Position numbers and translations under genes: made by a program | Part shown: piece after piece, positions 2,960 to 56,284 of the stretch | Position numbering within the stretch: position 1 is the stretch's first letter | How the letters are laid out: each line of letters starts with the position of its first letter | Notes under the pieces: generated by a model | The model's input: the letters and a program-made list of their open reading frames with translations, nothing else | The model's database searches: none | What the model was told of the DNA's origin: nothing | Assembly: GCA_001692895.1 (NCBI GenBank) | Contig: KV748244.1 | Location: 1 to 64,000, forward strand | Reading direction: 5' to 3' | Source of the DNA: Cenococcum geophilum 1.58 | Taxonomy: Eukaryota > Ascomycota > Dothideomycetes > Gloniales > Gloniaceae | DNA length: 64,000 nt

Positions 2960-3146
2960 TGTCACGGCACTGACCTGATGCATACTGTTTTATACTATCT
3001 TATACTATTCCCTACTGTTGGCTAGCCCACCACTAGCGACTTGGCGGCCGGCCCTACTATTTATATACAATACCCCCTTTCCACCTTCTTCCCCTCTTTA
3101 TACCACAACGTAGTTATTTAGTCTACTTTATTGCAGCACTGTAACA
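2960..3146 (+). repeat. 5' LTR of the nested Gypsy element
   Basis: The 187-bp repeat starts TGTCACGGCAC and ends GTAACA. It aligns without gaps to 9688-9874. It differs at about 20 sites, and every difference I could see is a transition. Confidence 0.93.
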
Positions 3147-6100
3147 GTTTGTGGTATCTTTAATTTACGCCCCGTTACGATCACTAATTCCCTATACCCT
3201 AGCCAATTAACCTCTACCCCAAAGCAATCGCGACCTACGCGCGCCTCTGCTGAAACTAACACGTTCCCAGTATAGTCTTAGAATAATCCTTAGTTTTTAC
3301 CTAGCGCCTAAATGGGCAACACTAATGACGCCAAAATGGCCGAAACCTAGAACCCCCGCGACGTTTTTATAGACCTATTTACAGAGATATACCCCAATAT
3401 CGCGTGGATAATCCGCCGCTCCCTACTATACCCTAAAACCTTTAAGCCTAGCAAAGCTTACCTTACCCTTGTTAACTATACTAATAAGTTCCTTAACAAT
3501 ATTAAAGTAGGACTATAGTGCATATATAATATAAACACCGCTAATAAGAAAGCTAACGAAAACCTTAGTGCCCTTATTACTTTCTAAACAGGAACTATTA
3601 ACTCCTAGGCAGAGACTATTACCGTTCTAAAATAATTAACCCCTATAATAACGGTAGTAACCTAGCAGAAAAAACGGAGATCTAAAGACCCGCTAATATT
3701 TAGCGGAAAAGGCACCCNNCTAGAATNATAAGCTAATTTTAANACCTGGCATATTAANATTAAGGGAGTCTTNNACNGGGACTGGGACTACTTTAATATA
3801 GTTTAGTCCTAGATCCTTTANATCTNNGATATNCTAAAGGACAAGGCCTATAAGTTTATTAAGTAGGGCCTAGAGCTTATANANAAGAACCTAAANAATA
3901 TATCTANNTNGAAATGGCCTACTAAGGAAGATATGCTTAAAGACCTTACTGCCCACTATAAGGTCCTTAATATAACCTAGGTCGCAAAGAATAAGCTTAA
4001 CTATTTCCCCTAAGGCGAGCGTAATTACTGGTCTTAGAAGGGAGAGCTTAATAAGCTAATAGTTTGCGCTGAAAAGACAGATAAATAGAAGGTGGACCTA
4101 TTCTAAAAGTTTATCTCTCTAAAGATGGAAGAGCTGGTACTTAGACTGGCCTATAAAATTAATAATAGTAACTATACAGGTTAAAGTAAGTAGATAAATG
4201 TGTTTACTAAGAACCTCGCAAACTATATATACCGAGCTAACCTTAAGAAGAACGCTAACTACTGCCTACCTACCTAAGCCCCTGCCCCTATGTTAACCCC
4301 AACCCTAGTAGTAACTAGAGAACCTATAGATCTTAATAGAATCTTAAACACGGAGCGCAAGCGCCGCGTTAATAATAGACTATACCTTACCTATAGCCTA
4401 CCCGGCCACTAGAAGGATACCTATAACCCCACTAAGATAGTAAACCCAGTCCTAATACCACCCCGTTAAATAACGCGAATAAATAACCGCGGACGCGGTA
4501 ACTATGGAATCTATTATAGACGTAGCGACCGCGGAGCCTATTATAGCCACGGCGGATAACCCCCCCCCTTTAACCCTACGGCTCAGTTACTCTAAACTAT
4601 ACCCTATATAGGAGCCTAACCCGTTAATAACGCCCAGTATTAGTAACTTCGCGCTAGCAAATATAAATACGGCCACGTTGTTGGTGAGGTATTATCTTCC
4701 TATACCCTAACCAAAATAGAGATAGACACCGCCAGCTAGATAGACACTAGACCGCCCCACTAAGACAGCTCTATACCCCAGTCGTTAAAAGGTAAACCCT
4801 TAGACTAAGTTACGCCTAAGGGTNTAAACTATATAAGGAGGAAGACGAGAAGATTAGGTCCCTGTTACTAGATTAATTAGTCCTTTCTATTAATAAACTG
4901 CTACTTAATCTTAGATTAGTAAATAGTAATAAGAAATTAATCCTTATTTAAACCCAACTCTCCTTATTATATAACCTATACCCCTAAGTTTATATTAATA
5001 TAGTAAGCCTAGTAGACTCCGGTAGTACTATAATAGCATTTACTAATGCAGAGTCTATTATAAGAAAGTATAACATTATAATTAAGAAGCTGCTAGCACC
5101 TAGGCCACTATGCCTCGCAGATAGTATCCCAACTTCGCTTATTACGGACTACTTTACCGCCTAAATATTAATCGGCCTCCATATTAAAGCTATACTCTTT
5201 TTTATTACTAAACTCTCGCCTACTACCCTAATTATCTTAGGTATGCCCTAGCTTTAGAAGCATAAGCCCTGTCCTAGCTTTAGGAAACTTAAGATCCGCT
5301 TTAACTTAGACTACTACTTTAGGCACTACCTCCTATAGGGGATAGCCGACGTTAGCAGAGACGCCCTATATGGATACTTAGTACTACTAAGCCTAGTGCC
5401 TAGGACTATATATAAAGCCCTAATAGTAGAAGACGTTCCTAATAAAGGGGAGCCTATATAGCTGTAAAGAAATAAGATAGTAGAAGACTAGACTAACCTA
5501 GCACTTAAGACTAAAATAATAGGCTAGCCAGCCCTACCGAGACTAAGGAAGAAGGTCCGCTTTACGCCGCTACTACTAAGAAACCAACCCTAACCTAGGC
5601 ACCATTTAAACCCCAGCCGCCTAGCCTAATACCTAGAACTAAGCCATATACTATATACGCACACTATAGCTTGCATTATAGTAAGGACTGGCTATAGAAC
5701 TACTAAGACCCGGATAATAGAAACCGCGCTACCGTAACGCCTAACCTTATACCTATCTCCCGCGCGTACTATATAGGGCCGCCACCTTATTTCCGCCCCC
5801 CTAGGCCGACTAAGCCGTGCTAGCCTAGCTATAGCACTAGAGAGCTAGATATGCCCTAACCTGGACAATATTAAATACACCTATACTGTTAATTTTACCT
5901 AGTTCTATAAATAAAAAGATATAAAGGTAATAAGGATCTATATAGTGGAGCTAGTAGAACTAGTTAAATAAGATAAGTACTAATAGCTGCTTAAAGAGCT
6001 GCCTATAGGCCTAATAGAAGTACCGAACCTATTAGAAAGGTCTTTCCGCCGGCTAGTGGAAGGCGACTATATAATAAAGGAAGCCCGTAAAGCGCTCCCC

Positions 6101-9100
6101 CTCTATTTCTATAACTTCCTTAAGATAAATCTAAAAACCAAATCTAAGCTTTTACGTTGGAAGATAGTCGATACTAATATTAAAAAATTCCTAAAAGGCA
6201 AACCAGAATTAACCCGCGAAGATATTCTATAACGCTTACTAAAGGAGTTTAGTAAATATATTAAGCACTTCCTCCCTAAGAACGCAGATAAGCTACCCCC
6301 TTACCAACTATAGGACTATAAAATTAAGATTACCCCCGGAAACTAGGCCCTATACTATAAAAATAGACCACTCTTACCTACTAAACTTAGGTGTGTAAAG
6401 AAGTGGATTAATAAGATACTGGATAAGGGTTTTATCCGCGAATTAACCTTACTAGCTACCGTACTACTCCTCCTCGCTACTAAGCCCAGCAGCGGTATAT
6501 AAATCTACTATAACTACTAAGGCCTAAATATAGTCACTATTAAGAATTAATACCTACTACCACTAATCCGCGAGATACTTGACGCACTTTATGGCGCTAA
6601 GTACTTTACTAAACTTAATATAATTACTGTGTTTAACCGGATCCGGATTGCGGAGGGCTATAAATAGCTTATAGTATTTATTACCCGGTTCGGACTCTAT
6701 AAAATACTAGTTATACTATTCGGCCTCTATAACGCACCCGCTACGTTCCAGAACTATATTAACTATATTCTACATAACGCCCTTAACGACTACTGCACTG
6801 CCTACCTTAATAACGTCCTTATCTTTTCTAAAACACGCGCTAAGCACACTAAGTATATAAATAAAGTCATCCAAAGACTCGGCAATACTGGACTTTAGAT
6901 TAATATTAATAAGTCTAAGTTCTACTCTACTAAAATAAAATACCTTAGCTTAATTATCTCGACTAATAGTATAACTATAAACCCTAAGAAGATACAGGCC
7001 TTATAGGAATAAAAGGACCCAACATTAATTAAAGAACTATAACAATTTCTCGGCTTCGCGAATTTCTACTAATAATTTATCTAAGGCTACTCTACTATCG
7101 CTATACCTATGATAAAACTTCTAAAGAAGGATATTAGATAGCTATAGGGACTAAAACAAGCCAAATCGTTTAAGGCCCTTAAGGGAGCCTTTACTTCAGC
7201 ACTAGTACTAGCATACTATAACTATACGAAGAAAACAGTGGTAGAGATAGACGTATTAAATTAGGCTTCCGGCGGAGTCCTTTCCCAGTATAATAATAAC
7301 GGAAAATTAAAACCGGTCGCATTCTTCTCTATAAAGCACTCCGCGCTAGAATGTAACTATAAGATCTATAATAAAGAACTCCTAGCTATTATTAAGGCTT
7401 TAGAGGAATAGTGTCCTAAGCTATAAGGGACTAAGGAGCCGTTTAAAATTATTACCAACTATAAAAACCTATAGACGTTTATAACTACTAAGCAGCTAAA
7501 CTAGCGCTAAGTCCAGTAGGTAGAGTTTCTTTTATAGTTTAACTTTATAATTATATACAGACCTAGTAATAAAGCTATGCTCCCTAACGCTCTAAGCTAG
7601 CTACTAGGAATAAGGCCTAAGGACGCTAATAATAAACGCCTCCGCTACCGAGCCTAAGTCGTTATACCGCCCCAGAAAGTTAACCCTATAATCTTAGAAG
7701 AATTACTATATAAGTCCCGTAACTCTAACAATATAGAGTTTGTAGCCGCTCTAGACCCTAAAATAGCCGAAAAGTTACTAGATAAGTTAATTTGGCTAAA
7801 ATACTAGGAGAATAAACTCGTAAGAGATATAGTGGCAGCCCTACGTAATTAGAAAGCTTACCATTAGCTAAAGAAAATTAGGAAATTACTTTATTGCGAT
7901 AAGTTAGAATACAGTATCGTTAACGGATAGATCTACTTCCACTAACGTCTCTTCGTCCCTAACGCCCTAGACCTCCGCCTAAAAGTTACCTATCGCTCTT
8001 ATAGCAGCGGCCCCGCTAGTTACCCCGGCCGGGTTAAAACTTTTAACCTTTTAAACCAAACATACTGGTAGCTAGGAATCTCCCAGTTTATAGCTACCTT
8101 CGTTAAAAACTATACCCTATACTTTCGCATTAAGACCCCCTATTCTGCCCCGCCCGGTTTCCTAAAGCCACTAGAATTACCCGCCCGCCCGTAAACTAAT
8201 ATCTCAATTAACTATATTATAACGCTGCTAGTATACTAACGCTACGGCAAGGCATATAAATATATCCTTATTATTATAGACCGCCTAACTAAAATATAAT
8301 ACCTCGTTCTAGTAACAGGACTCTTAATAAAGGAGTTAGTTAATAGCTTTATTAACAACGTATATAAGCTCTACGGTGCACTAAGTATAATTATCTCTAA
8401 TTACGGTATATAATTTATCAGCAACTTCTAGCGACGACTAAGTAAACGCCTTAAGACAACCTTATAACTAAGCTTAGCCTAGTACCTAGAAACAGATAGC
8501 TAAACTAAAATTATTAACGCCGCCGTAAATAAATACCTTTATGCTTTTATTAGCTTTATATAGGATAACTAGGTTAACTACCTGCTACTTACTAAGTTTG
8601 CTACAAATAACTAAGTTAACGAGAGCATAGGTATCTCCCCGTTTTTTGCAAACTATGGCTTTAACCCTCGCCTTAGAATTAAGCCTGCTGGCCCCTACCT
8701 ACTAATACTATTAGCATAAGTAAAGAAGGAGTTCTTCTGCGCAGACTCTATGGCTAACCGCTTTAAGCGGATATTAATATAGCTTAAGGCCCTAGCCCGG
8801 ATTTTATAGTAACGCTATAAAGATAATACTAATACCCGTAGGGATAAGAGCGCGTTATTTTATAAAGGTGATATGGTTATAGTTAGCTTAGAAAATATAA
8901 AGATAAATAAACTTAAGAAGAAATGGGACAATAAATGGGACAGCTTATATCCCGTACTCGCAGTATACTAAGGGGTAGTTGTAGTAGACCTCCCGGACTA
9001 TATCTAAGTAAATAAATCCTTTTATATATCTAAGGTCCGCCTCTAGGCTATTAAAGAGATCCCTAGCCAAGTAAATATTAATACTATAGAGCGCCGTAAT

Positions 9101-9687
9101 ATATAAGGACGAGTGACAGAGAGAGATAATAACGGCAATATAGAAGACAAATGGGAGTTTAAGAAAATCCTTAATGTATATAACGAAGACCCCTAGGGCC
9201 TAACTTATAAGATTAAATAGAAATATTATAAGGATATAACCTGGTAGCTAGAGGAAGACCTAAAGGGTTATAAATAAGCTGTATAGCGCTTCTATAAGCA
9301 ACACCCTAAGAAGCCAAGACCCCCAAACTGGGCACGAGATAAGGAAAAGTTACGTTAAGGTTGCGGCCGACCACCGTATTAAAATTTATAGTGGTTAAGA
9401 TGTTATAGAACTTTAACCAGCGGTCGAAGTTATCTAATTAGCCAAATTCTCGCTAAGAAACGCTATACGGACTAATTTAGGTGGCGGTATAGAGTTCTGC
9501 TAACCTTACTCACTAAACTAACCAATTAGGATTTTCCATGCCCGGCATAGAAAATCGCTATTGGCTCGGTTAAGGGCGGTAAGCAGAACTAATATCTTTG
9601 CGGTAGAAAATAGGCAACCCCGTATACTGCCTATTTTTAAGTTATTTATTTAGTTTAGGGACCAAACCGTCTAGGGGAGAGGAGTAC

Positions 9688-9874
9688 TGTTACGGCACTA
9701 ACCTGACGTATACTATTTCATACTATCTCGTACTGTTCCCTACTATTGGCTGGCCCACTACTAGCGACTTAGCGGCCGGCCCTACTATTTGTATACAATA
9801 CCCCCTTTCTACCTTCTTCCCCTCTTTATACTATAACGTAGTTATTTAGTCTACTTTATTATAGCACTATGATA
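9688..9874 (+). repeat. 3' LTR of the nested Gypsy element
   Basis: The 187-bp repeat starts TGTTACGGCAC, directly after a purine-rich tract. Its inner end matches the 5' LTR and is followed by the target duplication GTAAG. Confidence 0.93.
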
Positions 9875-16978: not shown

Positions 16979-17481
16979 ACTAATTTAAAGGGTTGGACCA
17001 GGACTTGATTTCATGGGGATTTTTGGTTTACATATATGTTCCATTCAACATCCACTCATTGAACAATTGGTCTTTTTGGAAGAGTTGTGTGATTATGCAT
17101 CCAATTACATTCTCATTCTCTATTACCGTGGTATACTATTATTAATTGAATTCATTCACCTAAAGGTTAAGTTCAAATTCTGTCTACCTAATCTCTCTTG
17201 ATTGCAAAACTGCATAGCAGTTTCTGTGCTGGCATGACTCGCTGCATTCACCAAATCAAAAAAATGTCACAGCCGAAAATTCACTCACCATCAAAATTCA
17301 CCATTAAAGTAAACAGGTTCTGAGTGTGAGAATTTTTCTTCCATCCTTTCTTCAACCTCAACCTCTCAACCTCTCAACCTCTCACCCCTAACCAGTGACC
17401 ACATACCCCTACAAGATCGACTGTAAATCTCTTTGCTTGATGCTGCAAAACCCTTACTCTATATTGGGTTAGATCAAAACG
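16979..17481. other. Intergenic region and likely leader of the zinc-knuckle gene
   Basis: No coding similarity was seen. 17340-17400 contains a pyrimidine-rich CTCAACCTCTCAACCT repeat typical of a fungal promoter/leader just ahead of the next start codon. Confidence 0.4.
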
Positions 17482-20400
17482 ATGTCCTTTAATCCAGAAA
17501 GACTCCCAGCATGTCACTCATGCGGCACCATAGGCTTCACGATGGAGACCTGTCCAGAATGTAGGCTGTGTGGCTACTGCAAGAAGAAAGGCCACACAAA
17601 GTTTGAATGTCCAAAAGCTCCTCCATGTCGAAACTGCAATAAAAAGGGACATCCGACACATCGATGTCGCTTCAGTACAAACCAACATTCACAATCAGAT
17701 CCACCGTCGGTTACTTCGCAGAACAAGACACGCCGACGCCCCTCCGGGACAAACCAACATCCACAATCAGATCCACCACCAATTACTTCGCAGAGCAATG
17801 AGCCGCTAGGAGAAAGTCGTTCGTTCCGCAAGTGGCGTAGCTTAAATGTCTCTATTACCTGCCCACCCCAAAGCCTTGAGACTTCAAATGATATGCCTGT
17901 AAGTAATATCTTTCTATGGGACATGGCACAGGGCAAGCCGGCCAAGTTAAAACGTAATCTAATCCGTCTTTTAGAATGATGTCAATGTAACACCGGAGAT
18001 CGTTTTCCCAAACCTGGAACAAACAATACACCAATTGGTTTCCGGCCTAGTACGCAACACTTACTCAGAAATTGAGGACCTAGGTTATTCAAGCTGGATT
18101 TTGAGCCATGGGGAGGGGGCTGTTACGAAAGCATGCTTCAATTGTATTGACGCTCGATTGCTAGCTCTAAGTGGATTACAACTTACGGTTAAACGGTAAG
18201 TATAATCACGGTTTCTACTTGATCCTAGGGAGTAGTTAGTAACGAATGATTACAGTATGGATGATATCTGGCTTTCACAATCCAAAGACACTGAGTACTG
18301 GCCCGACGCCGTTGGGTATGCAAACTACGTTAAAGATAACAGGAATGACAGTTATTTGCGCTTTTACGTTGGCCAGTCAAAGGAAGTTAGGCGCCGTATC
18401 CCTTGCCATTTAAGTAACATTTTAAAAGGCAAGTCGGATACTCTTCATTACTATATCTGTTCCCGTGGGGGCGGCCATCGAAGCTCTAGTTTCATACAAC
18501 TCTGGAGATTACCACCAAGTCCATACAATGACAAACTTTCCTCGGAGAATTGGTATGGCCTATTACACAACATTCTCGAGATGGTGTTCTGTCGGGCTTT
18601 CCAGTCGCTTTCGTCAAGAGTCCTTGAAACGTTTTTTGGACCACCAGAAACAGGCAGTTACGCAAATGTTGGGCTGAATGTCGCACCTCCACTCCTCCAG
18701 TCGGCTGTAGTAGATGATTTCAGGAAAATTCAGTTTACTATTGACATATCCCAATCTCAGGATCTCGAGGTTCGCCAATGGATCTCGGTCAGACAGGCGC
18801 AGAAGCCGCAATGGAAAAATACCTTGCGCCATGCACGGCAGTCAGGGGCTGTCCTTGACTACATAGGCGCTCTTCAAGATGCCTTGAAAGGGACCGCGGA
18901 CTTAGTGCAGATCGATTCATTTGCTGAAGGTGGCGAAGATATTAAGTCTTTACACGATCTGGACTATTTATTTAAAGACGGGGAGATCGAATCCGGCAAG
19001 CTTCTAAAGGAGGTTGTTCCTTTTACCCGTCCACTCGGAAGTCCATCAGCACGAATAGGATTTATTTTAGATTATGGAGAGCTAAGGGGGGATTCCTCGC
19101 ATGGAGATGCAGGACTAAAATTACCATGGGGATTCAAGGAAACGGGGTTCACCCCCAGGAACTCCCTCATATGGACATTCAATCTTCGGCAACCCTCTAC
19201 AGTCGATATAGACGTGCTTCATAAGCTTCAAGCCAGTCCATGGAAAGAACTACTCACCAAAGTTCATCGGAAGTTGATCCAAGGAAGCGCCCTGAAAGTA
19301 GTCTTTTTATGCGGAACGAATGCCAGGGAACTAACTCTAGCTGGAGTGGATTCTTATCAGAAATTTGGTCTTAAGCTTGCGACCCACAACTATGAGATCT
19401 ATCTGGAGACTCGTGGAGAAGGCCAGCATAGGTTGTACGCATATTGCCCTGAGCTCCCATGGACCCTAGCAATTGGGGACTGGGCGACTGCACAACGGAT
19501 TGATACCATTATCAAATTTGCTACAACTCTTACAAAAACCGAAGGGATCTACCGAAACGTATTTGAAAGATGCGGAGCGATTGTCCATATCCTTCGCCAA
19601 GCACAATATGAAGCAAAGACCGGAGTGCGCATGACAACGGATACATTGGACGTTAACCTTAAAGCGTGGATGTACTACAAAGGTTTTATCAACGATGAGG
19701 ACATCAGAAAGGTTGAACAAGCGGCTGGATGCCTTACCCGGGGACTCTTAATGCTTTTGCACATATTCCCTCGTTCCCCATATCCAAACAATGCGGTTCC
19801 CCAGACGGCTACTGGAAATTACCGTAAAAGGGACCATGATGTGGCCTTTCAGCCAGAACAGTTCCAAGAAGTAAAAAGTATTTTCGATAAGGTCCAGCAG
19901 GCAAAACAAGCAAGGTTATCTATATCCTCCGGTGGCGGAACGAATCAACTCTCAAGCCATGCATTAAACCAATCCCCAACTTCCGAAGATGGAGAGGTAA
20001 AATACGTTGAGCGAATGGAGCCAACTCGTGAAAACCTTGCAATTAGTCCTACTTCTAAAGAAGGAGACAACCAAGTGGTGAGCATTCAGGCTGTGGTTGC
20101 CGTATACGAAGGCCCGGCTAACTAGAGATCCTAGTATGACGATGGATTAAACTGGAAAAATGATGAGCTGGAAATTCTCGACCAATCGCTCGCCGGGTCA
20201 CCAAATTATGCCTCGTTTCAAGGCCTCGTGAAGAAGGCCTCTATGGTTGCTGAAGACTCGGAGGCTGAGATGATGGAGGAAAGTAGAATTGAAATACGCG
20301 ATATCCTGGCTAACGATGGCGCCCCTTATGAAGTCGCTGAAACGGGGTTGCTGGAGGGGCTGACCGATAGCGATATAAATGCGCAAACAGGGCACTTGCA

Positions 20401-20932
20401 TCCCAACATTATTGCAGGGGGAACACAGACAGTTCTTCCCAGGCCCCTCCTGGTGGGCGCCCCAGTCGCAAAATATGTTTGGAACTCAGGAGAAAACTCA
20501 AAGCGCCTGTGGGACACACAGTACAAATATGAAGGCTACAGGGTCCGAGCCCCAATACAGACACGTGAAGGGCTTTACGTTCTTTATTTCTGTTATATGC
20601 GGCTTATATTCCCAAAGGGTATTGACTTTGGCGACGATTATTTAACGCTTTACCCCAGGTTCTCAAGAGTTGGGCAAAGACATGTCCACGTCTACGCAAC
20701 ACAAGCACGGGATGATGACCCTGCTAGCCGTCTTGCTCTTAGAGTTATGGGGAAAGGGGCTAATGGAACGTCCTTCAACCTTTGCATTTCTCAATCCACC
20801 GAATCTGCAGTGGAGAAGGCAAACGCCTTTATAGATCGTATTTTGGAGGGTATTGACGAAGACAAGTTGAAATATCGTCCACGGCGGTGGGTACCTGCTG
20901 AACGAACTCGTGTACATAAAGTAGTAGACTAA
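17482..20932 (+). CDS. CCHC zinc-knuckle protein with GIY-YIG-like domain, function unknown
   Basis: There are four exons: 17482-17898, 17975-18195, 18256-20077 and 20135-20932 (introns 76, 60 and 57 bp; reading frame kept throughout), giving 1085 residues. Residues 30-43 and 49-62 are perfect CX2CX4HX4C knuckles. Residues 11-24 form a third with Phe19 in place of His. A TNQH(S/P)QSDPP unit is duplicated just after them. Residues about 232-330 look like a GIY-YIG fold: G-Y-A-N-Y-V, then Y-V-G-Q-S (250-254), an R-R-R triplet (258-260), a His (264) and a Glu in L-E-M-V-F-C-R-A-F (321). The remaining 750 residues are unrecognised; the last exon holds a well-ordered-looking block before a basic end. 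A role in binding or cutting nucleic acid is inferred. Catalysis is unproven. No stops or frameshifts, although RIP-altered DNA lies on both sides. Confidence 0.75.
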
Positions 20933-22304
20933 GTCGGTGACCGGGTCGGTGACCGAGTCACCCCCAAGACGAAACAAAACTAGTGAGCAGCAATAGCTTT
21001 AGATAAAGCCTGGATAGGTAGGAGAGACAACCAACCAGAAGTAAATCAATGAAAACTAATACAATAATGAGTTGTGCCTGTTCAAAGACTTGATCATGCT
21101 CGCAAACTGCGTGCGCTCACTGCTCTGCAAGAAGGCATAAGAAGGCCTGCAGGAACTATCTAAAGCCCTATAGGAAGAAAGGTGTTAACACCACTTGCGC
21201 CACCTCTAGACTTGCTGATAAGCAAGCAAGCAAGCAAAACACTTCTCTGCTTGCTTGCTTGCTGGCCTCAAAATTACGTCTACTTGCTTGCTTGCTTGTT
21301 AATTGCTTGCCAAGACAGTATAGATTTTAAAGTTCTATAGAAAATCCGCTATAGCTTCACCTAGTAGGTATATTGCCTATTAAGCTCCTCCCTATCAATT
21401 TGTTGAAATAAACGACTGAGGGGAGTCAAAAGTAGATGGAAAGGTTGAATAATTTATATTTGATGGAGTAAGAAGCTCGTATATATATGCATCAATAATT
21501 AGGTGGCTGGTAACGGCCACCCTATATTGGGCCCAGCCACCAAATTCTCAACACAATTAATTATGGTATAAGCTCGTTCGCATGGCTCGGAGGTAGTTTA
21601 TAAGGTAGACGTAGTAAAAGTAGCGCGTATATCGCGATCTTGGCGTAGTATAGAGGATTAGGAGGTAGTAGAGAAAGAAGGTATAGTAGCTGCTCCTTTA
21701 TTAGCTATTAGTTTTATATAAATTGGTGGACTTACTACCTTCTCTACCGGCCTTTTTATAACCTATCTTCTTCTAAGAACATGTATATTATAGTGTAGTA
21801 ATTATTATTAGCTATAACTTATATTAATAAAGCTCTAGTAGATTACTAGCTTTATTAAAACCTCCCCAGAGCCCCTTATCAATATTATCAGCATTCGTGC
21901 GTAATGGGCACTTCAGCGCCATGGAATATCAGCCCTTCCGCAGCGGCTTCACGCAGCGTTCGCACGGCGGTGTTCTTTCCATCCACGTGTGGGTTTTTTG
22001 GCAGTACACCACCATTCGGGGCCGTCGGTGTGCGGGCATTCTTTGTATTCTGCCTTTATCACTTCGCACATAGTTCACAGGGACGAGTGACAGAGTAGAG
22101 GGTTAACTATTTAAATAGTTGGGTACCTCTGTGAATGGTAGTGATACAAATGGTTAATTCTTATGACTACAGTGAACTTATGGATTTTACTTATCCGCGT
22201 CCATTACATTACCCACCTCTCCTTGCTCACCCGCAGTTGTCACTTCGTACCCATGGCTCACTGCACAAAAGGGCCGCCTAAACGACTTCACCTTTTTATC
22301 CTCC
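20933..22304. other. Repeat-bearing intergenic region
   Basis: A short tandem repeat of GTCGGTGACCG starts at 20934. 21221-21312 carries GCAAGC/GCTTGC runs in inverted order. 21502-21541 is a hairpin with 9-bp arms (GGTGGCTGG). 21550-21880 is AT-rich, RIP-like DNA. 21900-22240 shows no convincing coding sequence. The last stretch is the 3' flank of the AAA ATPase gene. Confidence 0.5.
21221..21263. repeat. Perfect 16-bp inverted repeat of GCAA/TTGC units
   Basis: The arms 21221-21236 and 21248-21263 are exact reverse complements made of AGCA/TGCT tetramer runs, with an 11-base loop. A further TTGC run lies at about 21283-21310. Confidence 0.8.
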
Positions 22305-24605
22305 TCACTCAGCCTTCTTAGCCTGTGGCGCCGTAACCTTAATACCACTCTCGAGTCTCAGCAACGACATATTATACTCCTTACAATCGCACCATGTCTT
22401 AACCGTCTTAATCGCATTCTTAATCTCTCTTCCGTTCAACTCCCACTTCGCCAGCTCCTCCAAATCCCCCCGCTCCAGCCCCTCCAACGGCCTCACCTTC
22501 CCCGTCTCCATCGGCAGGCGGTCCAAGAACTTGCGCCACAGCACGAGGCGGGACGCGGGCGGCAGCGGCTCGAACAGCAGGTGGATGTTGACGCGCGAGC
22601 GGAAGGCGGTGTCGATGGTGGAGTAGAGATTCGTGGTCAGGAAGATGATGCCGCGGAAGTACTCGAGCTCGCGCAGGAAGATGGAGACGAGCTCGTTGCG
22701 CGCGATGTCGGCGGGCGAGCGCTCCGCCATGAAGACGTCGGCTTCGTCGAGCAGGATCACGGCGTTCCATTCCGTCGCCATCTCGAAGACTTTCTTGATC
22801 TTTGGCCCGAGGTAGGCGGCGTTGGTGCCGAGATCTTCGGCTTGGAGGTAGTAGAGAGGGCGGCGCGTTTTGTCGGCCACTAGGGATAGTTAATTAGAGG
22901 GCTTGAAGTGGTATTGAGGGACTTTAGACTTACCAGCTTCAGCGGTGAGCGTTTTGCCGGTGCCTGGAGGGCCGCTCAGGAGGAGGATTAATCCTTGACC
23001 TAAATGGAATGATGAGCTGAGTGAACAATACTCATTGTTATAATCACTAACCTTTCCCCATGATGACATCATCCACTCCTTTCGTTCGCTGATGATTCTC
23101 GACGAAGGTTAAGACCAAATCCTTCTGCTCTTCCGGGTAAACCAAGTGGTCATATGCTTCGTCGTTCCAAACCACAGGCTTGATGTCATCGACATAGAAG
23201 CTCACTTGGAGATAATTAGCACTAGTCATGTGTCAAAGGCCGAACTTGAGTACTCACACCAAAGCTTATTTTTCAATGCAAACCCAGTCAGGATTGGGGA
23301 AAGGAGAATGAGATCCTGCTCTCTAGCGAGCATCTCATCTTTGTTCTTTTGCTGTCTCTCGTCGCTAAGCCGCTTGATATATGTGGATTTTTCTGCTGAT
23401 GGCTTCTCGTCCTCGTCTTCAGAATCACTGGTGTCTTCCTCTGTTACTTCTTTACCTTCCCTTCTTTGGAGAGCCAGATGATGCTTGTTGTACCCATACG
23501 CATCGATGAGAATCCGACCAGACACCTACAGCGTCTCGTTAGCAGTGCGTTTGGATTTTGCCAGTACTTTCCTGGAACATCTTCATACATTATGCTTCTC
23601 AACGTCGCATCCTTTATTGTGCACGCCTAGCCCTGAGTACTCGCAATATGTGAGCTGCTGGTAATTGAGAATTTTCTTCCCTCTAATAGTCAACCTCGAC
23701 TTTACACCCTCTTGATCTTCATGAAATATGAGAGGGTAGTTGGGAAGAGCAGTGACAGGTAAATTGCCTGGGAAGGCAGGTACCTGCAGCTCGACCGGTT
23801 TCCAAACGAAAGCTTCGCCATCAAAGCTGATATCCTGGCAAATGATGGCCATATGGGGTTCAGGTTTATTTCGGTATGCAGTATCGATGACTTTACACAA
23901 TCGCTCACAGTCCCTGGCTGCGCTGTAGACAATTGAGTTCTTGGGGAAGTACGTCCAAGCCAGCTTGAAAGATATCAATCCACTGGCTCGGAGATGCTTC
24001 AACTGTGTCATGAAACCGCCGAATAGGCCGGACATAACCTGGAGTAAGAGCTCAAGATGCTGTTTAAGGAGACTGTTTTCTTCTGATTTCCTGTGTAAGT
24101 CTACGATCTTGTCACAGCAAAAATACAATGACTTGAATGGCTCCTGGAATCTAGCGATCTCCGTCGCCTCGAGGAAGACATTTTCGTGCTTCAAAATATC
24201 CTTGAGAGCGGCGACAAGGATTGGGCTTTGGATCTCTATCATGTGGTACTTGAGCGCAGTGCGGCCGGAGATTGTGGGCTGTTCAGAATCTTTGATCTTG
24301 TAAACCTTGATAGCAACTCGATCATAGGATTTGGCAATCTTCTTGTTAAGCTGCTTCGGTGGAGTTTCGACCCAATCGTAGTAACCTGCACTACTGTTTT
24401 TGCCTTCGTAAAATGTCTTCAGGACAACATTTGTTCCGAAACTTGGGTCCTTGCCGGGAATGGTTGGGGCAGGGGGAGGAGAGGTTGCTTTCTGCCCATT
24501 CGGCATGGACAGGTCGCTGGAGGAGAGGAGTTTCCCCGTAATGGGTTGCGATGCAGATTTTCGTTTCCACATTTTCGCAAACGCCCAGCTGTCGTTGGAT
24601 ACCAT
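22305..24605 (-). CDS. DUF7025-type AAA+ ATPase
   Basis: There are five exons on the minus strand: 24605-23589, 23525-23258, 23204-23052, 22999-22934 and 22879-22305 (introns 52-63 bp), giving 692 residues. The N-terminal half has the DUF7025 type found before fungal AAA domains (Y-D-W-V, then ending in V-S-G-R-I-L-I-D). A charged linker with a D-S-E-D-E-D-E run follows. The AAA core has Walker A GPPGTGKT (about residues 489-496), Walker B I-L-L-D-E-A-D (about 540), sensor T-T-N and an arginine-finger-like F-R-S-R. All key ATPase residues are present, so it should be active. The substrate is unknown; members of this family are widespread and uncharacterised. The start is the first ATG of the open frame; an upstream exon cannot be excluded. 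Confidence 0.88.
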
Positions 24606-47241: not shown

Positions 47242-48323
47242 GTGGTCAGCGAATGTGAAGAAGAAATGAACTGGTCTGGGAGGGGCATGCATGTAGAATT
47301 TGGAAAAGAAGAAGCAGTCCCACTTAGCGATGCGACCGACATTGTAATAAACGCTAAAGTGCAAGTGCAAGCGGTAACTTGCGGCCGGATACGTGTTTGC
47401 CGGAAGACTCAAGTATGTCATAGGAGATTTACACCGGCCGAAGCCCTGGAAGAAGTTTGTCATTTACAAGTTCTAAAGCATAGCCATATCGTCAGACTGG
47501 TTGGAAGCTACTACCAGGACATATTCCCGTCGATTCTCACGTACCCCGTAGCAGACGTAGATTTGAGTCAATTTATGAAAGACATGCCTTGAAGCGCGGA
47601 GACCATCGATATGCCCATCCAACAGTTGAGGGAAGTCATGCAAAGTTTTTCCCTTGTCTCTGCGCTGCTACCGCATTCATCCACCTGTCTCAAATCAAGC
47701 ACATGGACATCAAGCCCGCCAACATCCTGATCTTGATAGGATCGAGAAATTCCTCCTCCATTCATCTCTTCATGACCGATTTCGGGATATCGGGAATAAT
47801 CCGGGATCCCGAACAGAGCCAGACTGACGGCGCCACTGGCAGAACGGAAATGTGTTGTAGCCCAGAGGTTGCAGACGGGGAACCAAGGGGACGCGCCTCC
47901 GACATCTTCAGCCCGGGATGTGTGTTTGCAGAGACCCTAACCTGCATTGCAGGACAAACTGTTCAAGGATTTTGAAATCGCCGAACGGACGACGGCGTGA
48001 GCTTCCACAGCAACCTATCTCTTGTAGTCAAATGGATTGAAGAATTGGATTTTGAGGAAGGGCCCTCTATATCTCCTGTTACATGTCAATCTTCAACTGT
48101 GTGCAGGAAAACGACGCTGGACATGATCAACCGGGATCCGAATGAAAGGCCAACTGCTTGGCAGCTGCTAGAAACATTTCCCCCAAGACCATGCTGCAAG
48201 CAAGGTCCGGTTTCTTTGGAGCCTGTTTTTCCAAGAGTGCCAGAGGAAGAGCCAGATATTATCCTTTCCCTCCCTCCTAGTCCCGCCGTTTTACCCACAC
48301 CTCACACGAGTTTCCGGAGATGA
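47242..48323 (+). pseudogene. Protein kinase relic with two frame changes
   Basis: Three overlapping frames together outline a Ser/Thr kinase of a type common in fungi. Frame one (to 47592) has L-Q-V-L-K-H-S-H-I-V-R-L-V-G-S-Y-Y and Y-P-V-A-D-V-D-L. Frame two (47589-47975) has the catalytic loop as H-M-D-I-K-P-A-N-I-L instead of HRD, and T-D-F-G-I-S in place of the DFG segment, then a P-E motif region. Frame three (47997-48323) has N-R-D-P-N-E-R-P-T-A-W-Q-L-L from the C-lobe. The glycine loop and the Val-Ala-x-Lys lysine are not visible. Frame breaks and the lost Arg mark it as dead. Confidence 0.68.
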
Positions 48324-49063: not shown

Positions 49064-52000
49064 ATGGCACCGACCCGCCTCTGCGCCGAGGACTACACCA
49101 TCGGATGGATATGCGCCTTACCCCTGGAGATGGCTGCAGCGATAGCCATGCTGGACCACCACCACCAAGATCACCCCCCACAACCTTCGCACGATCACAA
49201 CATCTATACCTTAGGCCGCATCGGGTCGCACAACATTGTCCTTACCTGTCTGCCTGAGACTGGCACCACCTCCGCCGCGACTGTGGCTTCCCAGATGTGC
49301 TCGACCTTCACCTTGATAAAGTTCGGCTTGATGGTCGGTGTTGGAGGTGGCGTACCTAGCCCAGCGGTTGATATCAGGCTGGGCGACGTCGTAGTCAGTA
49401 TGCCGAGCGACACGTTGGGTGGAGTGATCCAGTATGACTTTGGGAAAACATTACAAGAAGGCCGGTTTGTGCGGACCGGGTCGCTTAATAAGCCTCCAAG
49501 CGTGTTGCGCAACGCGGCGTTAAGCCTGAAAACGAAGGGTTTATCAAATGGGATTGACCTGTCAAAACACATATCAAAAGCCTTAATGGACAATCCGTTA
49601 ACTTGGATCTACCCCGGCGTGGAGCATGACCGCTTGTTCAAAGCGGAGTATAACCACCAGGGCGAAACAAGTACATGCGCGTCTTGCGACACTGAAAAGT
49701 TAGTCGTGCGATCGAGTCGAAGCGAAAATGACCCTAGAGTCCATCACGGCCTGATTGCATCTGGGAACCAAGTGATAAAGTGTGGCGATATCCGGGAGAA
49801 ACTGCGAAGAGAGCTGAATGTTTTGTGCTTCGAGATGGAGGCGGCTGGGTTGATGGATAACTTTCCTTGTCTGGTGATCCGGGGCATCTGCGACTATGCG
49901 GATTCACACAAGAACAAGGATTGGCAGCCTTATGCAGCAATTACGGCAGCTGCGTATGCAAAGGAAATTTTATTAATTATACCTGCATCTACAGTAGTCA
50001 AGACAGATGCTACGAAAAATGCTATAGATGGCAAAAAAGGTTAGCCTGGCTTACACTATCTACTTACAATATCCACACGTACGAACTTCCCATTACGTCA
50101 ATACAGTCTAGTTTAAATTTAACATAATCGTTACCAGCAGGGACGGGTGCCCACACTAACTTTGCTATTTTAGATCTAGCCACAGATTACCCCGCTAGTC
50201 TGTTGCCATGCGCTTCTCAAGCAGCATTTAATTCCTCTAATAAACGACATACGCCTTTGTGCTTTCCGGATACACGAACCGATGTCCTCACACAAATAAG
50301 AGAATGGGTTGCTGGACACCAGAAGTGCATCTTCTGGCTGAACGGCATGGCCGGGACGGGAAAATCCACCATCGCCCGAACTATCGCCACCGAATACTAT
50401 GAGGGTGGACGACTTGGTGCAAGCTACTTCTTCTCTAGAGGCGGCGGAGATCTTGGTTCTTCACAAAAACTCTTCACAACAATTGCCACACAACTAGGAA
50501 GCAAGTCTCCCGACCTCAAGCGCTGCATCTACGAGGCTGTTATGAAGAACACTGATATTGGAGATCTTGGACTTGACTATCAGTGGAAACATCTGATTCT
50601 CGAACCTCTTTCTAAGGTGGAGGACAGTTCGCTTTCTTCGCCCCTAGTTCTCGTAATCGACGCCTTGGATGAGTGCGGTAATGAGGATGATATTCAGCTG
50701 GTTCTTCAACTCCTTGCCACTGCCGGGTCTTTGCAAAATGTTCGACTCCGTATCTTCGTTACCAGCAGACCGGAGACAGCGATTCGCTACGGGTTCGATG
50801 ACATGCCGCAAGGTGCCCATCAGGATTTCATTCTCCACCAAATATCACCGGCCAAAATTGAGCACGATATGTTGATTATCTTCAAGAACAACCTTGAGAA
50901 GATTAGGCGAAAGTGTAAACTGCCTCCGGAATGGCCTGGAGAGGAGGGTATTAGAGATCTTGTTCGGAAGGCTGGCGGGTTACCAATCTATGCTTCGACG
51001 GCATGCCGTTTCGTTGGCGAGGATGCACGTTTGGCTGATTCGCGGCTAGCCCTCATTCTTCAGCATAATAACCACGCTCCGCCACCGGAGAAGAAGCTCG
51101 ACGAGACTTACACCACTGTCCTAACCCACTCAGTATGTGCAGAATATGGTGAACAGGAGACTAAGAAGCTTCGCGAAAAGTTCGTCCAGATTGTTGGATC
51201 CATTATACTTCTCTTCGACACATTACCGGCTTTAAGTCTCGCTAAGATTCTTCAAACGTCGAAGGAGGAAATAGACCAGACTTTGACGCGTTTGTATTCC
51301 GTGTTGGATGTCCCAGAAGACCAAAACGTGAAAATACGTTTACTCCATCCCTCGTTTCGGGATTTTCTCCTTGACAACCGGAGATGCACGCATCTTCAGT
51401 TTTGGATCGATGAGAAATTAGCCCATCATCACCTATTTACAAGTTGCCTAATAGCAATGTCAAGTCACCTTCGACGCAATATATGCGATCTTCGATCCCC
51501 AGGAGCTCTTACGACTGAGGTGGATAGAATTGAACTGGATAAGCACATTCCTCTACACGTTCAGTATGCCTGTCGATTCTGGATCTATCATTTTCAACGG
51601 AGCAGTATTGATCCCTGCGACTATGACAAAATCCAGACATTCCTACAAGAGCATTTCCTCCATTGGCTTGAGGCTCTTGCATTAATCGAGTGTATATCAG
51701 ATGCGGTTGTTATGGTGAAAATTCTAGATTCTATGCTCGCAGTAAGCGCTTTCTATAGAACTTCGTAGTATTAATGGCTAATCTACTCAGGTTGATACTA
51801 AAAGAAAAGCAGCTTCGTCGTTAAAGCTTAGATCCATAGCGAAATCTGCTCTTCCCCCATGGTTAAATGCGCAGAAAAACCTAACCACGCGAAGCAAACG
51901 TAAATCCACGCATTTTTCGGATCTACAAGCTTTGGTTTATGATGCAAAACGCTTTATCCTTAATAGCGCATCGATTATCGGAGCAGCACCTCTCCAAGCA

Positions 52001-55000
52001 TACTGCTCGGCAATGATATTCAGCCCAAGGACAAGCGTTATCAAGAAAGTCTTTTGGGACCAGGTCCCAGTCTGGATCAAGCCTAGTCCGTGGGTTCAGG
52101 AAGACTGGGACTCATGTTTACAAGCGCTCGAGGGCCATTCTAATTGGGTCTCGTCAGTGGCATTCTCGCCGGACGGCAAGCTGGTGGCGTCAGGCTCGCG
52201 CGACAGCAAGGTCAGGCTCTGGGACGCCATTACGGGAAAGGCGCGAGGCGCGCTCGAGGGCCATTCTGACGGGGTCACGTCAGTGGCATTCTCCCCGGAC
52301 GGCAAGCTGGTGGCGTCAGGCTCGGACGACAGGACGGTCAGGTTCTGGGACGCCGTTACGGGGAAGGCGCGAGGCACGCTCGAGGGTCATTCTCGTTGGG
52401 TCACGTCAGTGGCATTCTCGCCGGACGGCAAGCTGTTGGCGTCAGGCTCGGGCGACAGGACGGTCAGGCTCTGGAACGCCGCTACGGGAAAGGTGCAGGG
52501 CACGCTCGAGGGCCATTCTAACGGGGTCACGTCAGTGACATTCTCACCGGACGGCAAGCTAGTGGCGTCAGGCTCGCACGACAGGACGGTCAGGCTCTGG
52601 GAACCTACGGGAAAGGCGCGGGGCACGCTCGAGGGCCACTCTGACTCGGTCATGTCAGTGGCATTCTCGCCGGACGGCAAGCTGTTGGCGTCAGGCTCGA
52701 ACGACAGGGCGGTCATGCTCTGGGACGCCGCTACGGGAAAGGCGCGGGGCACGCTCGAGGGCCATTCTATTCCTTAGATCGGCTATGAAAATCCTCGAGC
52801 GTAGATGTGTGAGGGGATAGGCAAAATTCTTGGGGTGTAGACTTCTTGAGGTCTTGGCACTATTCTCTCAGTGGACTTATTTCTCTTATATCCAGAACTT
52901 GTGGCTGGTTCGAATTCGTAGACGTCGCCGGTGAGGAGCATCGCCGCAGGGTTTCGGCTGGCAGTGACAGCGCGCTCTTGACTGGGGCGGTAGTCGCGCG
53001 GCAGGCCGCTTTACGGTGACTTTACTGGGTCAGTTTTACCGGGAGCTCGCACGGAGCGCGGAAAGGGCATCGCCACGGGGTCTCGTGCTGGCAGGGACAG
53101 CAATTGCTCGTACTGCCGGTAGTCGACGGGCAGGCCGCTCTTACGGTGACTGCACTGGTTAACTTACCGGGAGTCTCGCGCGGGAGGCGGGGAGGGCATC
53201 GCCGCAGGGTCTCGTGACTAGCACAACAGCCCGCTCGGACTACGGTGGTCGAACGGCAGGCCGTTGCTCTTCGGTTGACTGCGCTGTTTAATCTTACCGG
53301 AAGCTCGCACGGGACGGGGAAAGGGCATCGCGCAGGGTCTGGGACTGGCACCCCAGCATGCTCGGACTGCGACGGTCGAACGGCAGGTCGCTCTTTACGG
53401 TGCTGTACTGTGTTTCGTCTTACCGGGATCTCGCCGGGGGGCGAGAAGGGCATCGCCGCAGGGTCTCGATGGCTGGCACGACAGCACGCTCGGACTGGCG
53501 GTGGTTCGAACGGCAGGCCGGCTTTTATGGTGATTTGCACTGGGTTCTTCTTACCGGGAAGCTCGCCCGGAGCGGGGACGGGGCATCGCCGCAGGTTTCG
53601 GACTGGCACCGACAGCGCCCTCGGACTGCGGTGGTCGGAACGGGCAGGCCGCTCTTACGGTGACTGCACTTGGTAGTTCTTACCGGGGAGCTCGCACGGG
53701 GCGGCGGAAGGGGCATGCCAAGGGTCTGGACTGGCGGACAGCGCGCTCGGACTGCGTGATCGAACGGCAGGCCTGATTTTACGGTGGCTGGACTCGGCTC
53801 AGTCTCTTACCGGGGAGCTCGCACGGAGGCGCGGAAAGGGCATGGCGGCGGGTCTCGGACTGGCACAACAGCAGGCTCGGACTTGCGGTGATCGCACGCC
53901 GGCCGACTCTTACGGTGGCTGTACTTGGTTGGTCTTTACCGGGGGCTCGCACGGGTCGCGGAAAGGGGCATCCAGGGTCTCGGACTGGCGGACAGCGCGC
54001 TCTGGATTGCGGTGATTGAACGGGCGGCCGGCTCTTACGGGTGGCTGCACTGGGCTCAGGTTTACCGGGAAGCTCGCCCGGGGCGCGGTAAAGGTCATCG
54101 CCTCGGGTCTCGGACTGGGCCCAACAGCAGGCTCGGCCTGAGGTGATCGACGCCAGGCCGCTTTTACGGGTGACCTGTACTGGGTTGNNNNNNNNNNNNN
54201 NNNNNNNNNNNNCGACTGTACTGGGTCAGTCTTACCTGGAGCTCGCACGGAGCGCGCGGAAAGGGCATCGCCACAGGGTCTCGGGACATGGCAGGGACAG
54301 CATGCTCCGTACTGCTCGGGTCAGTTCGAACGGCAGAGCGAGCTCTTTACCCCGGTGACCGCCCTTGCACTGCGGGTTAATCCTTACCGGGGAGGCTCCG
54401 CACGGAGCGGCGGAAAGGGCATCTCGCCGGGCAGGGGTCTCGGACTAGCTACAACAGCACCGCTCGCGACTACGGTGGTCGAACCCGGCAGGCGCGCTCT
54501 TCCGGTCGACTTGGCACTGGTTCAATCTACCGGGAAGCTCGCACGGACGCGGAAAGGGCATCGCCGCAGGTCTCGACTGGCACCCTCAGCATGCTCGGAC
54601 TGCGACGGTCGAAACGGCAGGTCGCTCTTACGCGTGACTGTACTGGTTCAGTCTTACCGCGAGCTCGCACGGGCGCCGCGGAAAGGGCATTCGCCGCAGG
54701 GTCTCGGGACTCGGCACGACAGCACGCTCGGACTGCGGTCGGTCGAACGGCAGGCGCCTCTTATGGTGATGCACTGCGGTTCTTCTTACCGGCGAGCTCG
54801 CACGGAGCCGCCGGAAGGGGGGCATCGCCGCAGGGTCAGTGGCATTCTCGCCGGACGGCAAGCTGATGGCGTCAGGCTCGCGCGACAGGACGGTCAGGCT
54901 CTGGGACGCCGCTACGAGAGTGCCGCTGCAGATGCTTAAGCTTGGTACGGTGATTCAAGACCTATCATTCTCTTCTTCAGGTGAATATCTTAAAACGGAT

Positions 55001-55231
55001 AGGGGAGTGTTAGATGCGAGGTCTCCTAAAGTATCGCTAGATTCTTCAGAGCAGTTGCTTACTCTATTTGTATTAGATAATTGGATAGCGGAGGAGGGGG
55101 AAAATATTCTTTGGCTTCCTTTTAACTATCGAGCGACTTGTGTAGCTGTCTGGAACGGAATAATTGTGTTGGGACACTTATCGGGGGGTATTTCATTTCT
55201 CCAATTTAAGCAAGGGTTAAAGACGATATAG
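49064..55231 (+). CDS. PNP-NACHT-WD40 NOD-like receptor (interrupted by a mirror-written assembly segment)
   Basis: The exons are 49064-50039, 50141-51741 and 51791 onward, with introns of 101 and 49 bp. Residues 1-325 are the nucleoside-phosphorylase-like domain (I-C-A-L-P-L-E-M, V-G-G-G-V-P, C-F-E-M-E-A-A-G-L, C-D-Y-A-D-S-H-K-N-K-D-W). The NACHT domain has Walker A G-M-A-G-T-G-K-S-T (about residues 394-402) and Walker B V-L-V-I-D-A-L-D-E-C (about 495). WD40 repeats of 42 residues start near 52127. The stop at 52775-52777 lies in sequence I judge artefactual (see 52769-54833). Normal sequence resumes near 54835 with a WD40 and a C-terminal tail (W-I-A-E-E-G-E-N-I-L-W-L-P) ending at 55231. 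So the true gene is probably continuous to 55231. Such receptors mediate non-self recognition and programmed death in fungi by family. Confidence 0.85.
52127..52768 (+). repeat. Tandem WD40-coding repeats, 126-bp unit
   Basis: Units begin CTCGAGGGCCA at 52127, 52253, 52379, 52505, 52628 and 52754. The spacing is 126 bp except one of 123. The copies are nearly identical, differing mainly at a few codons (for example after G-H-S and after S-G-S). This high internal identity is typical of recombining WD40 arrays in fungal NLRs such as the HET-D/E family. Confidence 0.95.
52769..54833. other. Mirror-image (reversed, uncomplemented) WD40 array: assembly artefact
   Basis: Read right to left on the SAME strand, this segment spells the WD40 unit over and over, with many one-base indels. 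For example 53448-53467, GGGCATCGCCGCAGGGTCTC, is the exact backward spelling of CTCTGGGACGCCGCTACGGG of the normal units. The left end (52769-52960) spells backward the unique tail found at 54896-55050; 52907-52924 is the backward spelling of GCAGATGCTTAAGCTTGG. Backward text cannot arise biologically. It is best explained by a gap filled with a raw long read that was reversed but not complemented. All open frames within it are meaningless. Confidence 0.95.
54188..54212. other. Assembly gap (25 N)
   Basis: A run of 25 N lies inside the mirror-written segment. Both of its flanks are mirror text. Confidence 0.99.
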
Positions 55232-55667: not shown

Positions 55668-55811
55668 TATCCCTTAACCCGTCAGAATCGAAGTAAGGGG
55701 GGTCCGTGCACGAACATTACGCGTTGTTTGGCGCGGGGCCTTAATCTAATTGATCCAATTGGCTAGCTCTTATCGATAACCGTACGACCAATTTTGACGG
55801 GTTAAGGGATA
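55668..55811. mobile_element. MITE, copy 3 (complete, 144 bp)
   Basis: The terminal inverted repeats are perfect over 17 bp: TATCCCTTAACCCGTCA on the left and its complement TGACGGGTTAAGGGATA on the right. The interior has TTATCGATAA in the opposite orientation to the copy at 56128. No coding capacity. Confidence 0.85.
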
Positions 55812-56127: not shown

Positions 56128-56284
56128 TGATCCCTTAACCCGCCGAGTTACGTCCATCTGTTATCGATAAGGATTTAGCCAATCAGATCAATAGGATCAA
56201 GGGTCCGTGACCACACGCGTACTTTTGATTCTGGTGTTCCCGCACGGACCATCTACTAGATGGACGCCGGCGGGTTAAGGGATA
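56128..56284. mobile_element. MITE, copy 4 (complete, 157 bp)
   Basis: The ends ATCCCTTAACCCGCCG and CGGCGGGTTAAGGGAT form terminal inverted repeats of the same type as copy 3. The interior GTTATCGATAAGG and CAATAGGATCAAGGG match the truncated copy at 46305. Confidence 0.85.

Follow-up and report, generated by a model that had tools for sequence, protein, structure and literature searches.

How can about 2 kb of a fungal gene come to be spelled from right to left on its own strand, and does such a tract belong to the organism or to its assembly? The question arises in the draft genome of Cenococcum geophilum 1.58 (assembly GCA_001692895.1), in the first 64,000 nucleotides of contig KV748244.1, the whole stretch analysed here and hereafter called the window. 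A gene of the NLR type, assigned from its predicted domains to the PNP-NACHT-WD40 class, here runs into a tract (52769 to ~54834) that an earlier note had described as its WD40 array and gene tail written right to left. Comparison of the spellings confirmed that the tract consists of the WD40 array and the unique 3' tail of this gene, backwards and uncomplemented. We regard it as almost certainly an artefact, in which long reads extending the flanks of gaps that stayed open in a short-read assembly were inserted reversed.

Spelling of the tract and its division into two pieces

Comparison within the window by the basic local alignment search tool (BLAST) revealed that 52769-54833, when reversed only, matches the clean WD40 units at 52125-52769 with ~75-84% identity (best E 3e-161; up to 86% in short pieces), as well as the right contig at 54836-55044 (E 8e-46). 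This reversal and alignment to the clean flanks, which the earlier note had proposed as a check, gave matches on both sides. In its deposited spelling the tract finds nothing but itself and its own repeats; a few of these alignments overrun its right end, reaching 54926 at most. Neither its complement nor its reverse complement has a match at E 1e-3 in the window, which agrees with the warning that a reverse-complement search would miss the homology. The 20-mer at 53448-53467 is indeed the letter-for-letter reverse of that at 52718-52737, as had been noticed.

Because the repeat array alone could mislead, the first 192 bases of the tract, which are mostly non-repeat tail, were compared separately with the right contig. 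They score 174 when reversed, as against 26 as is, 20 complemented and 21 reverse-complemented, and the maximum among 500 single-base shuffles is 41. The mirrored tail is placed at 54893-55046, so that the left end of the tract is the gene tail spelled backwards, as had been claimed, with coordinates slightly different from the 54896-55050 given at that time.

The tract shares with mirror repeats of the H-DNA type the property that one strand reads alike backwards. Such repeats are described as polypurine-polypyrimidine (PMC9171763), whereas the tract is a 2-kb gene copy of mixed composition, which carries read errors and ends at contig edges. Mirror sequences are also named in the abstract of a Pneumocystis paper (PMC10622565). 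A biological mirror repeat of this type was rejected, as the composition is mixed by eye and the partner blocks are separate coding stretches.

The tract comprises two pieces rather than one, because a run of 25 N (54188-54212) lies within it. On its left, the left contig ends with a clean array on the plus strand (52125-52768), which has 5.1 near-identical units of 126 bp (Tandem Repeats Finder: period 126, 87% matches) and a Pfam WD40 match of E 3.8e-76 on the open reading frame (ORF) ending there. The left fill piece (52769-54187) extends this contig; judged from the reversed BLAST, the tail test, the join in place and the unit count, it holds ~9.1 WD40 units and part of the 3' tail, with errors like those of raw reads. 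Its first part, 52769-53017, repeats the beginning of the right contig backwards, with the last partial unit and the tail to ~55046. The right fill piece (54213-54834) extends the right contig and holds ~4.5 units, according to its join in place and the unit count. The right contig itself (54835-55231, plus strand) starts with the last partial WD40 unit, followed by the 3' tail of the gene to the stop codon (WD40 Pfam E 9.2e-10 on 54839-55228). The right boundary of the tract, ~54834, is accurate to a few bases, and the unit count took the right piece to 54838.

The same units occur in both pieces, each time with errors of their own: as deposited, 53018-53595 of the left piece and 54214-54834 of the right piece are 82.5% identical with many indels, the right piece being a second noisy copy of this part of the left one. 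The earlier note had taken the whole fragment for one mirrored read, which does not fit two independently noisy pieces that flank 25 N and cover partly the same units. Reversed in place, the left piece continues the left contig directly and in repeat phase (GCCATTCT then GTTGGGTCATGTCC) across the join 52768/52769, and the right piece runs in phase directly before the right contig, with the join at ~54834/54835. The reversed left piece provides ~9.1 units upstream of the right contig start and then enters the right contig to ~55046; in this orientation it spans the array as far as the right contig, and the gap would have been closed by it. Its ~9.1 mirrored units, together with the 5.1 clean ones and the last partial unit, probably make up a true array of ~15 units. 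The "about fifteen" mirrored units counted previously are therefore not fifteen real ones, since the right piece re-reads ~4.5 of those in the left piece.

Mirrored blocks at six further loci

The genome (177.19 Mb, 162 contigs) was searched with 600-base fragments of three dispersed repeats, presumed to be transposons, spelled backwards. All three backward probes found matches, giving six further mirrored loci on six contigs: the first matched three places (E 4e-57 to 2e-25), the second one place (the locus on contig C53, a single short match of 63 bases with E 1e-15) and the third two places (E 4e-122 and 6e-118). At each of the six, the stretch examined has exactly one N run of at least 10, and this run is always 25 long. 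By comparison, the 200 kb of contig C1 examined as 20 stretches of 10 kb contain no N run of at least 25, the longest being 4. Most of the tract as deposited (53020-54187), searched against the genome, matched two places, both of them the tract itself, so that no other mirrored WD40 array was found by this search.

Could such matches arise by chance, or from low-complexity similarity between a sequence and its reverse? BLAST of reversed against forward sequence in 287 kb (28 records: the 20 stretches of C1, the window and seven loci that share the gene tail, with L001, L009 and L010, which repeat the window, omitted) did return four short matches outside the tract, of 37-46 bases in three distinct pairings. 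These look like low complexity, and no other mirrored block outside the tract was found in this set. The kilobase-scale mirrored alignments reach E 0.0, the tail score lies far above 500 shuffles, and one dinucleotide shuffle of one backward probe had no match genome-wide. We therefore take the probability of a chance origin to be negligible.

Further analysis of the joins showed the same arrangement as in the window. At C10, reversing the mirrored block (2924449-2926386) in place brings its end to L012:4274, next to a right contig whose start lies at L012:4283. C38 has two mirrored blocks, 17455-18322 and 18946-21377, and a right contig that begins at 23217; here the repeat coordinates that adjoin after reversal in place are 6300 and 6309. 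For C58, with mirrored blocks at 647431-649340 and at 650294-650364 and the right contig beginning at 651417, the pair is L013:3312 and 3310 (minus strand). For C21, mirrored at 958352-961288 and at 961542-962065, it is 2057 and 2058, and ~290 extra bases lie between them; at this locus the start of the right contig was inferred from a duplication that begins at 962551. The right joins are thus collinear after reversal in place at these four of the six loci. Complementing in place was ruled out at all four, because only reversal in place makes the adjoining repeat coordinates adjacent. C29 has mirrored blocks on both sides of the N run, and its left piece when reversed matches the right contig at 1342160-1342794. 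C53 is mirrored in its left piece, part of which corresponds to 819156-819359 of the right contig.

At four of the loci (C10, C38, C58 and C21) the right contig is repeated, with 99.9-100% identity over 0.5-2.1 kb, at or near the end of the left contig; some limits of these duplications are set by the extent of the DNA examined. At C38 the clean contig ends are 100% identical over 2,000 bases. The near-identical ends at the four loci suggest overlapping or misjoined contig ends, and a false duplication at the gap.

The mirrored pieces are much noisier. The window tail (52769-53017 reversed) is 77.2% identical to its clean copy over 254 columns, with 5 mismatches, 47 inserted and 6 deleted bases. 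For the mirrored piece of C38 against a clean copy, identity is 85.2% over 957 columns, the differences being 26 mismatches, 27 inserted bases and 89 deleted ones; the figures are 77.3% over 233 columns for C53 (20, 25 and 8, respectively) and 71.4% over 696 columns for C29 (92, 61 and 46), where the reference copy may itself diverge. Indel bases outnumber mismatches in all four comparisons, as in raw single-molecule reads, and this indel-rich profile bears out the earlier suggestion of an uncorrected long read as far as the error level is concerned.

Two readings other than a fault of gap filling can be weighed against these data. In the first, the reversal happened to one long read, during base calling or storage, and no locus other than the tract in the window is mirrored. 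The noise of the tract would suit a single read, and so would the left piece, which alone runs from the array into the gene tail; however, the two pieces in the window are separate, with their own errors in the same units, and the mirrored blocks beside 25 N on six other contigs lie outside its reach. This reading is very improbable. In the second, the tract is real DNA, a mirror duplication of the array in vivo. No support for such a duplication was found; the array does consist of near-identical units and is a genuine repeat. Against it stand the joins at contig edges beside 25 N, which become collinear only after reversal in place, and the indels of the raw-read kind in the tract. Moreover, polymerases and recombination are not known to write a strand in reverse polarity. 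A duplication in vivo is accordingly exceedingly improbable, and the earlier conclusion that the tract is an artefact, its polarity being impossible in vivo, holds.

Gap filling as the probable source

The joins and the recurrence leave an artefact of reversed flank extensions as by far the preferred reading. Since the pieces are reversed in place against their own flanks, and six other loci have mirrored blocks with 25 N, the tract is best explained by a systematic gap-filling fault of the Cenococcum geophilum assembly rather than by a single bad read. According to the genome paper, Illumina libraries were assembled with ALLPATHS-LG, and a PacBio RS C2 library of 3-kb fragments was used for gaps (PMC5023957). 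Arrays of this kind are a known difficulty: fungal NLRs with high internal conservation belong to the same gene class and have the same 126-bp WD40 unit, and their short-read assemblies are reported to be unreliable, with repeats fragmented, omitted or created (PMC12222747). The present case differs from the misassemblies described there in that the missing array is present, but backwards.

The most probable sequence of events would be as follows. The near-identical 126-bp units would have broken the short-read assembly, after which long reads aligned to each contig end would have been used for extension into the gap. Each extension would then have been spliced in reversed without complementing, at the correct place and on the correct side, and the two extensions would have been left unjoined, with the gap open and 25 N between them. 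The slip might have been an extension reversed once too often, or a minus-strand read complemented without reversing. As a consequence of the mirroring, the left piece would not have been recognised as closing the gap, although it contains the missing array and reaches into the right contig. The fault appears to lie in software or scripts, not in the reads.

As to the tool, we infer PBJelly acting by flank extension; it presumably puts exactly 25 N in gaps of its "overfilled" class. PBJelly grows extensions from contig ends into a gap; where these have no identifiable overlap the gap stays open and is classed as "overfilled", and a read error of 15% is assumed (PMC3504050). The loci described here resemble overfilled gaps in that an N run remains beside or between the extensions (25 N, in the window and at the six other loci), in that each piece extends its own flanking contig, which here is true only after reversal in place, and in that the inserted sequence has the error of raw long reads (~15%, indel-rich). 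They differ in being written backwards, which the passages on such gaps in PMC3504050 and PMC9635638 do not mention.

The same kind of artefact might also have been produced by another tool or by an in-house script. In its account of the gap filling with PacBio data the genome paper names no tool (PMC5023957), and literature titles and abstract openings gave no report of fills reversed without complement. However, a later mycorrhizal paper from the Joint Genome Institute (JGI) states, for hybrids in general, that hybrid ALLPATHS-LG assemblies were patched with PBJelly (PMC7550596), and the anatomy of the loci fits flank extension and the overfilled class. We regard another tool as unlikely, though far more probable than a backward read or an origin in vivo.

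Several observations weigh against reversed PBJelly extensions as the source. The word PBJelly has no occurrence in the main text of PMC5023957, and PBJelly fills are described as a consensus made by a local assembler (PMC3504050), while the pieces here look uncorrected. If the whole stretch from the N run to the right contig is fill, it amounts to 5.8 kb at C38 and ~4 kb at C21 and C58; these lengths exceed the 3-kb PacBio fragments (PMC5023957), which would call for a different library or for local assembly. The mirrored matches cover only part of these long stretches. Among the joins, the left one at C29 is based on ~80 bases at 81% identity, and that at C53, where the probe match has 63 bases only, lies beyond the DNA examined. 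Finally, all seven loci were found through mirror-based evidence and are not a sample of 25-N gaps.

Consequences for the host gene and for users of the assembly

Upstream of the array, the NLR-type gene has an N-terminal PNP_UDP_1 domain of the phosphorylase superfamily (49064-50044, plus strand; Pfam PF01048, E 5.4e-14) and an NPHP3_N/NACHT nucleotide-binding module (50203-51768, plus strand; PF24883 E 2.6e-30, PF05729 E 2.7e-8). The domains sit in separate ORFs, and the gene was assigned from their order (PF01048, PF24883/PF05729, PF00400), which places an effector-type domain, a NACHT module and a repeat domain together, as predicted for the PNP-NACHT-WD40 type. The gene looks cut off at 52777, where the ORF ends, although the array probably continues to ~15 units. 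ORFs within the tract are false, as had been warned, because the tract is an artefact, and it is to be discarded for biology.

Over at least 313 of its 336 bases, the gene tail (54896-55231) is common to eight other loci at 77-82% identity; weaker, partial matches occur elsewhere. These loci, on C65, C2, C37, C1, C57, C5, C58 and C8, look like a multi-copy gene family. For the WD40 arrays in three records (L002, L004 and L006), a match to the mirrored tract requires reversal of the tract; these arrays are thus not mirrored themselves. Downstream of the gene, two elements of ~145-155 bp (55668-55811 and 56130-56283) resemble miniature inverted-repeat transposable elements, with terminal inverted repeats of the TATCCCTTAACCCGTC type that are 95-100% complementary. 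Upstream, ORFs at 47242-48323 resemble, by eye from the translations, a fragmented protein kinase gene. A long repeat at ~2960-9868 of the window is ~90% identical to stretches in L021 and L024; short N runs are frequent in it at 3718-3910, and a further one lies at 4824.

The extent of mirrored sequence in the assembly can be guessed to an order of magnitude. For one probe, the forward spelling produced 1327 first-look candidates (40 were scored) and the mirrored spelling two matches; this would put the mirrored share near 0.15%, a few hundred kb, a figure that depends on one repeat fragment and two mirrored matches. Outside the fungus, a search of 20,395 E. coli records with 1,000 bases of backward E. 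coli 23S ribosomal RNA, made with no forward control, found no match. GTDB contigs contained no exact copy of a 24-base pattern from backward 23S, likewise searched with no forward control; this is a weak test, because a read with 15% error seldom keeps 24 exact bases.

Tentatively, we suggest that backward, uncomplemented fills may form an unrecognised class of error in long-read-patched drafts of the PBJelly era, and may account for part of the unexplained overfilled gaps. Since backward extensions can overlap neither each other nor the opposite contig, gaps that are spanned by reads would then stay open. In the PBJelly study, no explanation was given for 563 of the 1,007 overfilled gaps in one species (PMC3504050), and one fish assembly has 28,377 overfilled gaps (PMC9635638). 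Ordinary both-strand similarity searches are blind to mirrored sequence, which therefore passes as unique, orphan DNA. Such tracts could be found in any assembly by a screen of the reversed assembly against itself, beside runs of 25 N, which would also show whether mirrored fills explain the gaps of the PBJelly study (PMC3504050). Altogether, the significance of the mirrored tract is greater for users of the genome than for the biology of the gene.
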